Shown: positions 34,076 to 46,190 of the stretch, piece by piece
Numbering within the stretch: position 1 is the first letter of the stretch
Layout of the letters: each line of letters starts with the position of its first letter
Assembly: GCA_016208415.1 (NCBI GenBank)
Contig: JACQYB010000031.1
Span: forward strand, 47,461 to 111,460
Direction: 5' to 3'
Source: Betaproteobacteria bacterium
GTDB taxonomy: Bacteria; Pseudomonadota; Gammaproteobacteria; Burkholderiales; Rhodocyclaceae
DNA length: 64,000 nucleotides
Made by a program: the position numbers and the translations under genes
Notes under the pieces: model-generated
What the model was told of the DNA's origin: nothing
What the model saw: the letters and a program-made list of their open reading frames with translations, nothing else
Databases searched by the model: none

Positions 34076-35179
34076 TCAAAGCTCAACCATGGCATGACCA
34101 TGGCGCACGAACGGCGGCTTCACCACCCGGGCGCGCAGGCTGCGGCCGCGAATATCGACGGTCACTTCCTCGCCGGCGACGCTTCCGGCCGGCAACCGGG
34201 CCAACGCGATGGAACGTTGCAGTGTGGGGGAGAACCCGCCGCTGGTGACGACGCCCTCGCCATGGCGCGTGCGCACCGCCTGGTGCGCACGCAGGACGCC
34301 GGGGTCCAGCAGGAGCAGGCCGAGGAACGCGCGGGGGCTGGCGATGGCAGTCAGGGCGTCACGTCCGATGAAGGCGCGTTCGCCGGAGAGGTCCACCGTC
34401 CAGGCCAGGCCAGATTCCAGCGGCGAGACGCTCTGGTCCATGTCCTGGCCGTAGAGATTCATGCCGGCTTCGAGTCGCAGGGTGTCGCGGGCGCCAAGTC
34501 CGCAGGGGCGGGCGCCGGCGGATTGGAGATCGTTCCATAGCGCCACGGCGCGCTCGGCCGGGAGGAGGATTTCGAAGCCGTCCTCGCCCGTGTACCCGGT
34601 ACGGGCGATGAACAGTTCCGCGAGGGCGGCGGCATGGAAGGGTCGCAGTCCGGCCAGGAGTTCCCGGGCAGCCGGAATGGCGGTGGCCAGTGTCGCCTGG
34701 GCAGTGGGTCCCTGTACGGCGATCATCGCCAGGTCTCGGCGTGCCCGGATTTCCGGCGCTTCACCGCTGATGCCGGCGTGGGCGCGCAACCAGGCCAGGT
34801 CGGCCTCGGCGGTGCCGGCATTGACGACGAGGCGGTAGCAGGCATCGCCCCGGCGGTAACAGATCAGGTCGTCCAGCACGCCTCCGTCGTCGCGCAGCAT
34901 GCAGGCGTAGAGCGCGCGGCCCGCGTGGTCCAGACGGGCCGCGTCGTTGGCGAGCAGGGCGCGGAGAAAGGCAAGCGCGGCCGAGCCTTCCACGTCCACC
35001 GCCAGCATGTGCGAAACGTCGAAGATGCCGCAGGCACGGCGCACCGCGTGGTGCTCCTCGATCTGCGAGCCGTAATGCAGCGGCATGTCCCAGCCGGAAA
35101 ATGGCACCATGCGCCCACCGAGGCTCACATGGACAGGATGAAGCGGTGTTTTCTTCAGGGATTCATCTGGATGGGTCAT
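34076..35179 (-). CDS. gcvT: Aminomethyltransferase (glycine cleavage T protein)
   Basis: Transfers the methylene group from H-protein-bound aminomethyl to tetrahydrofolate. The 367 residues match. Motifs: [46 protein letters not shown] and [20 protein letters not shown] with the catalytic Asp region. First gene of the gcv operon, directly downstream of the glycine riboswitch. No clear Shine-Dalgarno precedes ATG 35179 in the short stretch (35180-35217) after the riboswitch. Confidence 0.95.
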
Positions 35180-35217
35180 GAACTTGAGAGAGCACGCAAA
35201 TAGACTGGAAAGGGTGA

Positions 35218-35432
35218 GCACAGGCTGCTCTGCCCCTTCTGTCCCTTGTACCTGAGAGTTTGCGGCCTGCACATCGTGCCGTTGCCGCGTGCCCCTTCGG
35301 TGGACGGGCCTGCGTGGCTCCCCACGCCCCGTCGCTCTCCAGAGTTCCGTATCGTTCCGCAGTCCTTTTGCCTGAGCGATTCAGGGGGTGATTGCGCCTT
35401 CGGCGGCGGCCATTCCAGGCCGCGCTCTCCCG
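35218..35432 (-). promoter_or_regulatory. Tandem glycine riboswitch of the gcv operon
   Basis: Two consecutive glycine aptamers on the minus strand. Aptamer I (about 35430-35333) runs from GGAGAGCGCGG through CCGAAGGCGCAA, CTCAGGCAAAAGGACTG and ends CTCTGGAGAGCG. Aptamer II (about 35332-35218) contains CACCGAAGGGGCA, AACTCTCAGGTACAAGGGAC and AGAAGGGGCAGAGCAGCC. These are the conserved CTCAGG(C/T)A.AAGGAC cores of the class. Glycine binding should turn on gcvT-gcvH-gcvPA-gcvPB to use excess glycine. I cannot tell whether the expression platform acts on transcription or on translation. Confidence 0.94.
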
Positions 35433-35501
35433 CGGGAACGGGAGCGACTATACCCAGCAACTGCACAGGCTGGCAAGCCGGGCCTGTCAGCGGCCTCGGG
35501 C

Positions 35502-40654: not shown

Positions 40655-41573
40655 GCGCGAGGGCGAATCCGGCGCCGGAACTCCGGCTGCCGCACCCGAT
40701 ACGCCGCAAGGCCGCAGGACTGCGCCCCCCAGGCGCGCACCGGGTGGCGACGCCGTACCCGCGGTGAGGCTGCAAAAGGTGCTGGCCGAGGCCGGCTTCG
40801 GGTCGCGCCGCGAGATCGAGGAATGGATCAGCGCCGGACGCATCCAGGTCAACAACGAGCCGGCTCAACTCGGCCAGCGCCTGTCCCCCGGCGACCGCGT
40901 GCGGGTCAATGGGCGGATCGTCAAGCTCCGGTTTGCTCCACGGCTGCCACGGGTCCTCGTGTACCACAAGCCGGAAGGAGAACTCGTGACGCGGGACGAT
41001 CCTTCCGGCCGCGCCACCGTATTTGACGCATTGCCGCCGATCAGGGGAGGGCGGTGGATCGCCGTCGGCCGGCTGGACATCAATACCGAAGGTCTGCTCC
41101 TGTTCACCACCAGCGGAGAGCTTGCCAACCGCCTGATGCATCCGCGCCATGGCCTCGAACGGGAATATGCCGTGCGTGTCGTCGGGGAGCTTTCCGATGC
41201 ACAGCGCAACGAGTTGCTGAAGGGCGTGCAACTGGAGGATGGCCCGGCACGCTTCAATACCCTTGAAGACGCAGGCGGAATGGGCTCCAACCACTGGTAC
41301 CGGGTGAGCCTGGGCGAGGGACGAAATCGCGAAGTTCGGCGCATGTTCGAAGCCGTGGGCGTCATGGTCAGCCGCCTCTTGCGCGTGCGCTATGGCCCGA
41401 TTCGTCTGCCGCCGCAGTTGCGCCGCGGCATGATTCATGAACTGCCACGTTTCGAGGTGCAAGCGCTGCTCCGCACAGACGAGGCCGTGGCGGACACGAC
41501 AGATGGGAGTGCCGGAGCACCGGTCACCACCCCGCCAAAGCCGAAGCGATTTACTCGAAGTCGCCGGGAATGA
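40629..41573 (+). CDS. rluB: 23S rRNA pseudouridine synthase RluB
   Basis: Pseudouridine synthase that modifies U2605 of 23S rRNA. 314 residues, with a basic disordered N-terminus (1-45), an S4 domain ([20 protein letters not shown]) and the catalytic domain with Asp150 in [15 protein letters not shown]. Further motifs: [34 protein letters not shown] and [12 protein letters not shown]. The start is TTG 40629 with AAGG about eight bases upstream, inside the scpB 3' end. The C-terminal tail is poorly conserved. Confidence 0.93.
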
Positions 41574-41579
41574 TAGAAT
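41550..41579 (+). promoter_or_regulatory. Candidate promoter of the rimP-nusA-infB operon
   Basis: TTTACT (41550-41555), 18-base spacer and TAGAAT (41574-41579), with TG one base upstream of the -10 (extended -10 form TGATAGAAT). It overlaps the rluB stop codon. Expected start about 41586, giving a leader of about 100 bases before rimP. Confidence 0.6.
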
Positions 41580-41621
41580 TTCAAGGATTCTTGGCTGGCA
41601 CCAGCCGAGGAGGGGGCGCAA

Positions 41622-41696
41622 ATGGGCTCCTTCCGAAAACAAGAATGGGCGTTTCGCCCATTTTTTATTTGTGCTGCCGGTAGAGCATGCAGGTAG
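41622..41696 (+). CDS. Putative 24-codon leader peptide of the rimP operon
   Basis: ATG 41622 follows a strong purine-rich ribosome-binding site (GAGGAGGGGG, 41607-41616; eight bases spacing). The product reads MGSFRKQEWAFRPFFICAAG then RACR. The frame passes through the whole terminator hairpin (41644-41666) and stops at TAG 41694-41696, ten bases into rimP (ATG 41687) in another frame. Translation should therefore disrupt the hairpin and may couple to rimP. Expression is inference; the peptide has no recognisable domain and its sequence may be secondary to the act of translation. Confidence 0.5.
   Translation: MGSFRKQEWAFRPFFICAAGRACR
41644..41670 (+). terminator. Intrinsic terminator inside the rimP leader
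   Basis: Stem aatgggcg (41644-41651) with cgcccatt (41655-41662), three-base loop ttt, then tttt and an AT-rich tail. It lies between the predicted promoter and rimP, so it can only act as an attenuator of this operon or as terminator for rluB read-through. A second AATGGGC at 41621-41627 could pair with the same GCCCATT (41656-41662) as an alternative. Confidence 0.75.
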
Positions 41697-42115
41697 AAGG
41701 CGTCGTCGAACGCGCGGTCAGTGGCCTCGGTTATGAGCTGGTGGACTTCGAGTCAAGTCCCCGGGGGCGATTGTTGCGCGTCTTCATCGACAGTCCCCAG
41801 GGAATCACGGTGGATGACTGCGAGCGGGTGAGCCACCATCTCACGCGCTTGTTCACCGTGGAGAACGTGGATTTCGATCGGCTGGAGGTGTCCTCGCCAG
41901 GCCTGGATCGAGTCCTCAAGAAGCCTGCGGACTTTGCCCGCTTTGCGGGGCACGAGGTGCAGGTCAGGCTGCGCCTGCCGATGAACGGCAAGCGCAATTT
42001 CACTGGCGTGCTGCGGGGCCTGGAGGATGGGCAACTCCACCTCGACGTCGGTGGCACGATGACGCAATTCGAGCTTGCGCAGGTCGAAAAGGCGCGGCTG
42101 GTGCCGAAGCTGTAA
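41687..42115 (+). CDS. rimP: Ribosome maturation factor RimP
   Basis: Needed for 30S subunit maturation. 142 residues with the RimP N-terminal domain (LGYELVDFESSPRGRLLRVF), VDDCERVSHHLTRLF, the VSSPGLDRVLKKPADFARFA motif and the C-terminal Sm-like domain (GKRNFTGVLRGLEDGQLHL). First confirmed gene of rimP-nusA-infB. The ATG lies seven bases before the end of the leader ORF. Confidence 0.96.
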   Translation: MQVEGVVERAVSGLGYELVDFESSPRGRLLRVFIDSPQGITVDDCERVSHHLTRLFTVENVDFDRLEVSSPGLDRVLKKPADFARFAGHEVQVRLRLPMNGKRNFTGVLRGLEDGQLHLDVGGTMTQFELAQVEKARLVPKL

Positions 42116-42142: not shown

Positions 42143-43615
42143 ATGAGTCGTGAGATCTTGTTGCTGGTGGATGCGCTGGCGAGGGAGAAGAATGTCTCCA
42201 AGGACATCGTCTTCGTCTCGCTGGAATCGGCGCTGGCCTCCGCCACCAAGAAGCGTATCGACGACGAGGCGGACGTGCGCGTTTCCATCGACCGCGAAAC
42301 CGGCGAGTACGAGTCCTTCCGCCGCTGGCATGTGGTGGACGACGAAGCGGTGGAAAACCCGGCCAGCGAGGTGGGGCTGACGGCAGCGAAGGACAAGGTG
42401 TCCGACGTGCAGCTCGACGAGTACATCGAGGAGGCACTGGAGCCCATCGAGTTCGGGCGCATCGGCGCCCAGGCCGCCAAGCAGGTGATCCTGCAACGCA
42501 TCCGAGACGCCGAGCGCGAACAGATTCTCAACGACTTTCTGGAGCGCAAGGAGCATCTGGTCACCGGCCCGATCAAGCGCATGGAGCGGGGCAACGCCAT
42601 CATCGAGGTCGGGCGGCTCGAGGCCGTGCTGCCGCGCGACCAGATGATTCCGAAGGAGAATCTGCGGGTGGGGGATCGGGTACGCTGCTGCCTGTTGCGG
42701 GTGGAGCGCGGCGGGCGCGGTCCGCAGCTCATCCTGTCGCGAACAGCGCCTCAACTCATCATCAAGCTGTTCGAACTGGAAGTGCCGGAGATGGAAGACG
42801 GGCTGCTGGAAATCAAGGCGGCAGCGCGCGACGCCGGGGTGCGCGCCAAGATCGCCGTGAAATCCAACGACCCGCGCGTCGACCCCATCGGCACCTGCGT
42901 CGGCATGCGCGGATCCCGCGTTCAGGCGGTCACCAACGAGCTTGGGGGCGAGCGCGTGGATATCGTGTTGTGGTCGGCGGATCCGGCGCAATTCGTGGTG
43001 GGGGCCCTATCACCCGCGGAGGTGACCAGCATCGTCGTGGATGAGGAATCCCACAGCATGGACGTGGTGGTGGACGAGGACAACCTTGCCATGGCCATTG
43101 GCCGCAACGGACAGAACGTTCGCCTGGCATCGGAACTCACCGGCTGGACCATCAACCTCATGACGGTCGAGGAGTCCCAGCGCAAGGCCCAGGAGGAGAC
43201 CGTCTCGATTCGCAGTCTGTTCATGGAAAGGCTGGACGTGGACGAGGATGTCGCGGATGTGCTCATCGAGGAGGGCTTCTCGACCCTCGAGGAGGTGGCG
43301 TACGTGCCGCTTTCCGAAATGCTGGAGATCGGAGCCTTCGATGAGGACACCGTCCACGAACTGCGCAACCGCGCGCGCAACGTCTTGCTCACCGAAGCGA
43401 TCGTCGACGAGGAGCAACTCGAGAACGTGGCCGAGGATCTCCTGAACCTCGACGGCATGGATAAGCCATTGGCGGCCAAGCTCGCCCGCGCCAACGTGCG
43501 CAACCGCGACGAGCTCGCGGATCTGGCGGTGGACGAACTTGTGGAGATCTCAGGAATTGACTCAGAGCGTGCGAAGTCGTTGATCACGACTGCCCGCGCA
43601 CACTGGTTCCAATGA
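42143..43615 (+). CDS. nusA: Transcription termination/antitermination factor NusA
   Basis: Pausing, termination and antitermination factor bound to RNA polymerase. 490 residues. N-terminal polymerase-binding domain ([20 protein letters not shown]), S1 domain ([18 protein letters not shown]), KH domains ([37 protein letters not shown]) and two C-terminal acidic helical repeats ([20 protein letters not shown]-like; [17 protein letters not shown]). Strong GGAGGTGG precedes ATG 42143. In E. coli NusA autoregulates its operon, which is relevant to the leader upstream. Confidence 0.97.
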
Positions 43616-43631: not shown

Positions 43632-46190
43632 ATGGCGCAGATGAGTGTGACTGAATTCGCGACCGAGTTGAAGATGCCTGCGGCGGCACTCCTGGAGCAA
43701 CTTCAGCGGGCCGGGGTGGAAAAACGAAACGCGCAAGATACCCTGAGCGAACAGGACAAGACCAAACTGCTGGAGTACTTGCGTCGCGCCCACGGCAGTG
43801 GCGCACAGGCGCGCGCCAAGATCACGCTGACGCGCAAGCAGACCAGCGAGATCCGGCAATCCGATTCCACAGGAAAGGCCCGCACCATCCAGGTGGAGGT
43901 GCGCAAGAAGCGGGTGCTGGTGAAGCGCGATGTGCCCGAGCAGGCTGCCGCGACCGTCGAAGCCCCGACATCGGTGATCAACGAAGAGGAATTGGCGCTG
44001 CGCGAGCGCGAATCCCAACGCCAGTCCGAGCTGTCGTCTCGCCAGGCGCAGGAAATCAAGGAAAGGCAGGAGCGCGAGGCGCGCGCCCGGCAGGAAACCG
44101 AGGAGCGGCTCGGGACTCAGCAGGCGGCAAGCGAAGCCGCGGAACGGGCGGCGCCAGCGGAAGTGCCGGCGACGCTGGTGCCCGAAGCGGCACCGGTCGC
44201 TGCGGCACCGGCGAAGCCCGCCGTCAAGCCTGAGGTGCGGGCAGAGAAGAAGGAAGAGAAGAAGCCCGCCGTAAAGAAGCCCGCCACCAGTTGGAAGGAC
44301 GACGCGGCACGCAAGCGCGGCATCAAGACTCGCGGGGATGCAGGCGCTGCCGGCTGGCGTGGGGCGCGTCATGGCCGGCACGGGCGCGGTGCGGGCGAGC
44401 ATCATCCCGCCGCGGCGCCCGTGGAACAGATGGTCCGCGAGGTTCTTGTCCCCGAGACAATCACGGTTTCCGAACTGGCCCACAAGATGGCCGTGAAGGC
44501 CGCTGAAGTCATCAAGACGATGATGAAGCTGGGCTCCATGGTGACGATCAATCAGGTGCTGGACCAGGAGACGGCCATGATCGTCGTGTCTGAAATGGGC
44601 CACGCGGCCAAGCCGGCGAAGCTGGACGAACCCGACGCGTTCCTGGCCGAGGAGACGCAGCAGCACGGCGACGTGGCGGTGGAGGCGCGCGCGCCGGTGG
44701 TGACCGTGATGGGCCACGTGGACCACGGCAAGACGTCGTTGCTGGACTACATCCGCAAGAGCCGCGTGGCTCACGGCGAGGCAGGTGGCATCACCCAGCA
44801 CATCGGTGCCTATCACGTTGAAACGCCGCGCGGGATGGTCACCTTCCTCGACACCCCCGGTCACGAGGCCTTCACGGCCATGCGCGCACGCGGTGCCAAA
44901 GCCACCGACATCGTTATCCTGGTCGTGGCCGCCGACGACGGCGTGATGCCCCAGACGCGGGAAGCGATCCACCATGCCAAGGCCGCGAATGTTCCTCTGG
45001 TGGTGGCAATCAACAAGATCGACAAACCCGGCGCCAATCCCGATCGCGTCAAGCAGGAACTGGTGGCCGAAGGGGTGTTGCCCGAAGAGTATGGCGGCGA
45101 CGCGATCTTCGTGCCGGTGTCCGCCAAGACGGGGCAGGGGATCGACGAGTTGCTGGAAAGCGTGCTGCTGCAGGCCGAGGTGCTGGAACTGAAAGCGCCC
45201 AAGGAGGCCCCGGCCAAGGGACTGGTGATCGAGGCCCGGCTGGACAAGGGTCGCGGCCCGGTGGCGTCGATCCTGGTGCTCTCCGGCACGCTGCGCCGCG
45301 GCGATGTTGTGCTTGCCGGTGCGACCTTTGGGCGCGTACGTTCGATGAACGATGAGTCGGGGGGATCCGTCGACGTGGCCGGTCCGTCCATTCCAGTGGA
45401 AATCCAGGGGCTTTCGGACGTGCCCAGCGCCGGGGATGATGCCATCGCGTTGTCCGACGAGCGCAAGGCACGCGAGATTGCGCTTTTCCGCCAGGGCAAG
45501 TTCCGGGACGTCAAGCTCGCCAAGCAACAGGCGGCGAAGCTGGAGAACATCTTCGACCAGATGGGTGAGGGGGAGGTGAAGTCCCTTGCGCTGATCATCA
45601 AGGCCGACGTGCAGGGCTCGCAAGAGGCGCTTGCCCATGCGCTGCAAAAGCTCTCCACCGATGAGGTCAAGGTCAATATCATCCACGCCGCAGTAGGCGG
45701 GATCACGGAGTCGGACGTCAATCTTGCGACGGCTTCCAAGGCCGTGATCATCGGTTTCAACACCCGTGCCGACGCCCAGGCGCGCAAGCTCGCGGAACAC
45801 TTCGGGGTGGATATCCGCTACTACAACATCATCTACGGCGCCGTGGACGAGGTTCGCGCCGCCATGGCGGGCATGCTGGCACCGGAGCGCAAGGAAAACG
45901 TCATCGGCCTGGTCGAGATTCGGCAGGTGTTCCGCATCTCCAAGGTGGGTGCCGTGGCCGGCTGCTATGTTCTCGACGGTATCGTGCGCCGCAGTGCCCA
46001 CGTGCGGCTGCTGCGGGCAAACGTCGTGGTCCATACCGGGGATCTGGAATCCCTCAAACGCTTCAAGGACGACGTGCGCGAGGTCAAGGCTGGATTCGAG
46101 TGCGGACTGTCGCTGCGCAACTACAACGACATCCAGGAAGGCGACCATCTGGAGGTCTTCGAGATCCAGGAAGTCGCCCGCACGCTCTGA
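43632..46190 (+). CDS. infB: Translation initiation factor IF-2
   Basis: GTPase that brings initiator tRNA to the ribosome. 852 residues: IF2-N domain ([20 protein letters not shown]), a long charged and alanine-rich linker, a second IF2-N-type segment ([20 protein letters not shown]), then the G domain from G1 GHVDHGKTS at Gly361 through DTPGHEAF and [11 protein letters not shown], and the C-terminal fMet-tRNA-binding region ([14 protein letters not shown]). GGAGG precedes the ATG. No internal frameshift. It sits 16 bases after nusA. Confidence 0.97.

Follow-up and report, generated by a model that had tools for sequence, protein, structure and literature searches.

A probable rimP-leader transcription attenuator before the rimP-nusA-infB operon of a betaproteobacterium

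What decides whether an RNA polymerase that starts before the rimP-nusA-infB operon also reads it, when an intrinsic terminator and a short open reading frame (ORF) lie in between? The question arises in a stretch of 64,000 nucleotides from a Betaproteobacteria bacterium (GCA_016208415.1, contig JACQYB010000031.1), here called the window, for which an earlier note proposed that translation of a 24-codon leader ORF makes the decision. Our analysis points instead, with good confidence, to a rimP-leader transcription attenuator made of a promoter and a terminator, with probable feedback by NusA and with no translation switch.

In the window the upstream gene, named rluB from its own translation, ends at 41573. 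The operon follows on the plus strand with rimP (41687-42115) as its first gene and nusA (42143-43615) as its second, and then a frame at 43632-46190 which, from its translation and place, we take to be infB, encoding IF-2. Between rluB and rimP lie a promoter-like site, two leader hairpins and an intrinsic terminator. The predicted sigma-70-type promoter (41550-41579, plus strand) consists of TTTACT and TAGAAT separated by 18 nt, with a TG before the -10, and overlaps the end of rluB; the promoter scan found this one site where 0.1 were expected in shuffles, which bears out the promoter claimed ahead of the leader, and transcription would start near 41586. The terminator (41641-41666, plus strand) has its stem at 41641-41665, with the core GGGC GTTTC GCCC, and a T run up to 41666. 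A terminator scan is weak by itself here, with two terminator-like sites against 0.9 expected, one of them the minus-strand mirror; the fold of 41586-41700 has a z of -3.96, and none of 200 shuffles folds as well. A 37-codon frame is also present (41570-41683), whose ATGA start overlaps the rluB stop and which crosses the terminator and ends 4 nt before rimP; by reading of the sequence, the corresponding ATGA frame in the near relative G010 (the same locus as L067) stops before the terminator.

Relatives were compared at the family level; the set of 61 genomes holds no genome of the window's own genus besides the window's. The NusA of the window is 83% identical (best segment) to those of Rhodocyclaceae bacterium SB9, Candidatus Desulfobacillus denitrificans and others, and by this comparison its nearest named relatives are Rhodocyclaceae. 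A rimP match was found in 58 of the 61 genomes and the leader was read in 56, G047 and G060, both with the strict motif described below, being left out. Together with 80 named loci these gave 136 regions. Four of them (L077, L092, L096 and L141) do not reach the leader, which leaves 132 regions and 125 distinct leaders, the window's genome included. Of the 125 distinct leaders, 109 have a -10 with at least five of six matches no more than 130 nt before the stem, against 31.0 expected in shuffles. These 109 leaders are the set for the counts of ORFs, RTGGGC copies and upstream hairpins below, and since the start of each was taken from the predicted -10, single starts may be wrong. Shuffles kept base content only in these tests, in the -10 test and in those of the window leader, and kept dinucleotides in the test of 5'-arm pairing.

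The motif GGGY..RCCC followed by a T run is present in 132 of the 136 leader regions, the remaining four being cut by contig ends. The invariance of the stem is partly by construction, because the search pattern demanded GGGY..RCCC and a T run, yet no complete region failed. The pair inside GGGC/GCCC varies (GC 56, TA 16, TG 9, AT 9) and is paired in 94 of 118 cases; three TG pairs at offset 3 result from a pattern that started 4 nt early, at GGGTGGGC, in G003, G012 and G056. A strict form that includes a TTTGT tail occurs as a single copy in each of 40 of the 61 genomes, always on the rimP strand and 6-87 nt ahead of the rimP match, and the reversed strict motif, used as a control, has no match in the 61 genomes. 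The other 21 genomes lack the strict pattern: three have no rimP match, and looser forms of the motif are present in the remaining 18. In a class-wide sample the search covered a related strict pattern only, and found it in just 17 of 143 genomes (the window's genome being one of them), a count that speaks against the attenuator reading; 16 of the 17 sites adjoin rimP and nusA, L190 being the exception. The pattern GCCCATT is too short for a genome-wide search to be informative.

Judged by these features, the window terminator is of a kind already known, the general rimP-leader attenuator that Naville and Gautheret published in 2010 (PMC2965389). They describe a GGGc..gCCC stem and a T run before rimP-nusA-infB, and rimP ranks first among the attenuated genes that they list. 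The rimP-leader section of their paper reports no larger conserved element, proposes a protein as regulator, with NusA as the best candidate, and describes a tandem form in several Gammaproteobacteria (PMC2965389). The window has the GGGc..gCCC stem (41647-41659), a T run 20 nt from the start codon (the published range being 4-130 nt before the gene) and rimP as the first gene of the operon; the premature terminator before the NusA and IF-2 operon, for which the earlier note had suggested a feedback role, thus matches the known leader. It differs in an added ATTTGTG tail, conserved in these Betaproteobacteria and absent from that section (PMC2965389), and in 5' hairpins and an ORF that are particular to the window's genome. 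With the Rfam family RF01770, the tandem form of Gammaproteobacteria, the window has the operon and the downstream (second) terminator in common, whereas the upstream CCCg..cGGG terminator is missing. Membership in RF01770 (gathering cut-off 47 bits) was rejected, the window giving no match at E up to 10. The same search matched its E. coli positive control and found no RF01770 at the rimP leaders of the 61 genomes, with one sub-threshold match away from rimP.

Cases from other bacteria bear on how such a leader may act. In Streptococcus agalactiae, a single start before rimP is reported to give both short and long transcripts, with termination 31 nt farther down, and feedback by NusA is suggested there (PMC4448216). 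According to a review, the NusA of Bacillus subtilis controls its own expression by stimulating termination in the 5' leader (PMC12288461). In both cases transcription ends early at an intrinsic terminator ahead of the NusA operon, as proposed for the window; both are Firmicutes with transcript or depletion data, whereas the window is known from sequence alone. For E. coli, two terminators ahead of rimP and repression of the operon by NusA are described (PMC6511841), and the enterobacterial rimP leader is named among ProQ-associated, attenuator-derived RNAs (PMC5391140). Two E. coli results count against the attenuator reading: the northern patterns presented for cold shock are not consistent with antitermination at the rimP leader (PMC6511841), and a Rho mutant gave lower values for reporter fusions to the rimP 5' UTR and ORF, a drop which that report leaves unexplained (PMC7815308). 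Extending the S. agalactiae, B. subtilis and E. coli mechanisms to the window relies on the shared motif.

Besides the motif, its conservation and its one-copy link to rimP, which are observed, the attenuator reading includes steps at the RNA level in the window (where transcription starts, that it terminates in vivo and that NusA is the sensor) that we infer. Transcription would begin near 41586, and a share of the polymerases would come to a halt at the hairpin and its U run, which ends at about 41666-41670. A premature stop would leave a leader RNA of about 80-85 nt, and read-through would give the rimP-nusA-infB mRNA. The regulated step would probably be the stopping efficiency of the elongation complex; NusA would stimulate termination and in this way hold down its own operon, and a translation switch would be unnecessary.

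An alternative that we consider unlikely is that attenuation varies by lineage and works through an alternative RNA structure or a ligand in the 5' part of the leader. The window leader is unusually well folded (z of -3.53 for 41586-41645), and an upstream terminator-like hairpin with a T run is found in 25 of the 109 leaders against 1.4 in shuffles (L068, L110, L118-L121, L123, L124, L126, L127, L130, L131, L133, L134, L136, L137, L140, L142, L143 and L145; G003, G012, G016, G020 and G031), the window not among them. Among the titled records with this hairpin, 14 of 20 are Dechloromonas, Azonexus/Azonexaceae or Propionivibrio, and this arrangement resembles the tandem form of Gammaproteobacteria, also seen in E. 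coli K-12. Against such a mechanism, the 5' part differs between lineages; the first hairpin of the window leader (41591-41608, plus strand, GGCTG..CAGCC) is by eye not conserved in relatives. Nor is pairing of the terminator 5' arm enriched before the 3' arm exists: in 101 of the 109 leaders, eight very short ones being omitted, the mean is 0.614 against 0.659 in shuffles, and pairing is above the shuffled value in 43. A general antiterminator that holds the 5' arm was rejected on these figures. In the window the predicted folds show a transient pairing of the leader 5' end with the terminator 5' arm in transcripts ending at 41650-41658, which is gone by 41662 and, in the transcript ending at 41650, differs from the other fold by no more than 0.1-0.2 kcal/mol.

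Less probable still is translation-coupled attenuation, in which a ribosome translating the 24-codon ORF determines the fate of the terminator and a second AATGGGC serves as the alternative partner of its 3' half. The elements of this proposal exist. The ATG frame of 24 codons (41622-41696, plus strand) runs through the terminator and ends inside rimP, as had been described, 10 nt into the gene, and it has an AGGAGG (41608-41613, plus strand) 8 nt before the ATG. AATGGGC occurs at 41621 and 41644, and GCCCATT at 41656. Of 20,000 mononucleotide shuffles of the window leader, 1.0% contain an ATG frame that crosses the terminator and has a Shine-Dalgarno (SD) match of at least 6, and 0.6% contain an AATGGGC, both features having been picked after the fact. 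The ribosome-binding site, which the earlier note rated as excellent, is paired in a strong hairpin: in the second leader hairpin (41609-41634, plus strand, -18.2 kcal/mol, with the ATG at the loop) 41609-41617 pair with 41626-41634, and the predicted pairing probability of the SD is at least 0.996 at 41609-41617 and 0.91 at 41608. The 3' arm of this hairpin (41626-41634) comes right after the ATG and would therefore form before full ribosome binding is possible.

A leader-ORF attenuator of the trp type would have a conserved ORF with a usable ribosome site and a competing antiterminator pairing; the counts, fold energies and 5'-arm pairing in these leaders point to neither. ATG frames that extend past the terminator and have an SD match of at least 4 are found in seven of the 109 leaders, the window's included, against 11.6 in shuffles, so the ORF is not conserved in relatives. 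Any ATG is found in 26 leaders against 49.2, and ATG, GTG or TTG frames with an SD in 20 against 38.5. The leaders look, from these counts, purged of start codons and not built around one. The second AATGGGC (41621-41627, plus strand) lies within the second hairpin, and its role as a pairing partner is likewise unsupported: upstream RTGGGC copies occur in four of the 109 leaders (G000, G010, L116 and L128) against 4.5 in shuffles, and by the earlier note's own refuting condition, loss of the partner in relatives, the translation model fails at the family level. Both copies can be written against GCCCATT, as the earlier note had it, but with the 41621 copy forced onto it the fold lies 16.3 kcal/mol above that of the terminator, and the pair probability is about 5e-12. 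Near relatives do supply some evidence against the no-switch reading. A GTGGGC copy is present in G010, at a different position, together with a TTG frame, and L066 has a GTG frame; the SDs of both frames are weak, with matches of only 4, and both frames are counted among the 20. Titles, abstract starts and passages of the literature, drawn largely from outside subscription papers, yielded no report of a leader ORF for rimP. A role of the ORF specific to the lineage is possible, because the comparison set has no genomes of the same genus; the 24-codon frame is, on the comparisons made here, probably a coincidence of the window's genome, as the second AATGGGC also seems to be, and the idea that translation decides read-through of the operon is not supported.

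That the terminator merely ends rluB transcripts and has no regulatory role for rimP would fit its position after rluB (ending at 41573) but is very improbable, given that the -10 sites of 109 of the 125 leaders lie between the upstream gene and the stem, that the motif occurs once per genome and always with rimP, and that a form of it precedes rimP in E. coli too, where metY lies upstream.

With the attenuator as the preferred reading, the tempting leader-peptide model is removed and the Rhodocyclaceae and other Betaproteobacteria are placed firmly in the rimP-leader group. The tail ATTTGTG (41667-41673, plus strand), which follows the T run, offers a concrete target for mutation. Its three T's are kept in 124, 124 and 114 of the 125 distinct leaders and its first G in 112, and the exact ATTTG follows the stem in 92 of the 125. 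In E. coli the T run is followed by ATGTC, so the tail is not universal; its distance to rimP is variable, which makes it unlikely to be a ribosome site only. We tentatively speculate, with more doubt than confidence, that the rimP terminator is a sequence-specific sensor, whose GGGC/GCCC core and conserved UUUUUUAUUUGUG run, present as one copy per genome and before rimP only, may be read by NusA or another factor of the elongation complex, so that a minimal circuit of promoter and terminator would set the level of NusA and IF-2.

The terminator also bears on the Rfam family RF02420 (Bp1_162, a Burkholderia sRNA), of which the window has a weak match at the terminator (41621-41668, minus strand). 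The match scores 30.5 bits on the minus strand and 22.1 on the plus strand, both below the cut-off of 50, and membership was rejected. In the family of G154 the search covered 60 genomes, and 25 of them have matches at E up to 0.001 (L147 and L150-L173), 19 of them over the cut-off. All 25 lie opposite the rimP strand and directly upstream, 79-221 nt from where the rimP match starts, and the rimP strand has the GGGC..GCCC-T motif at 24 of these places (190 nt examined), L163 being without it. A sample of the order gave matches in three of 120 genomes, two of them (G154 and G054) antisense to rimP and the third (G040), below the cut-off, at a place without rimP or nusA. According to the part of the original report that concerns it, the sRNA was predicted on the minus strand with SIPHT and tested by oligo-dT-primed cDNA and PCR (PMC3521395), an approach which would not by itself settle the strand. 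The simplest reading of the matches is that RF02420 is probably the rimP leader read on the wrong strand, and a true antisense RNA is possible. If it is the attenuator on the wrong strand, the Rfam entry would need correction.

Elsewhere in the window, a glycine riboswitch (RF00504, 67.4 bits in Rfam) lies at 35350-35442 on the minus strand. It stands upstream of a gene on the same strand (34076-35272) that we take to be gcvT-like, an ordinary arrangement.
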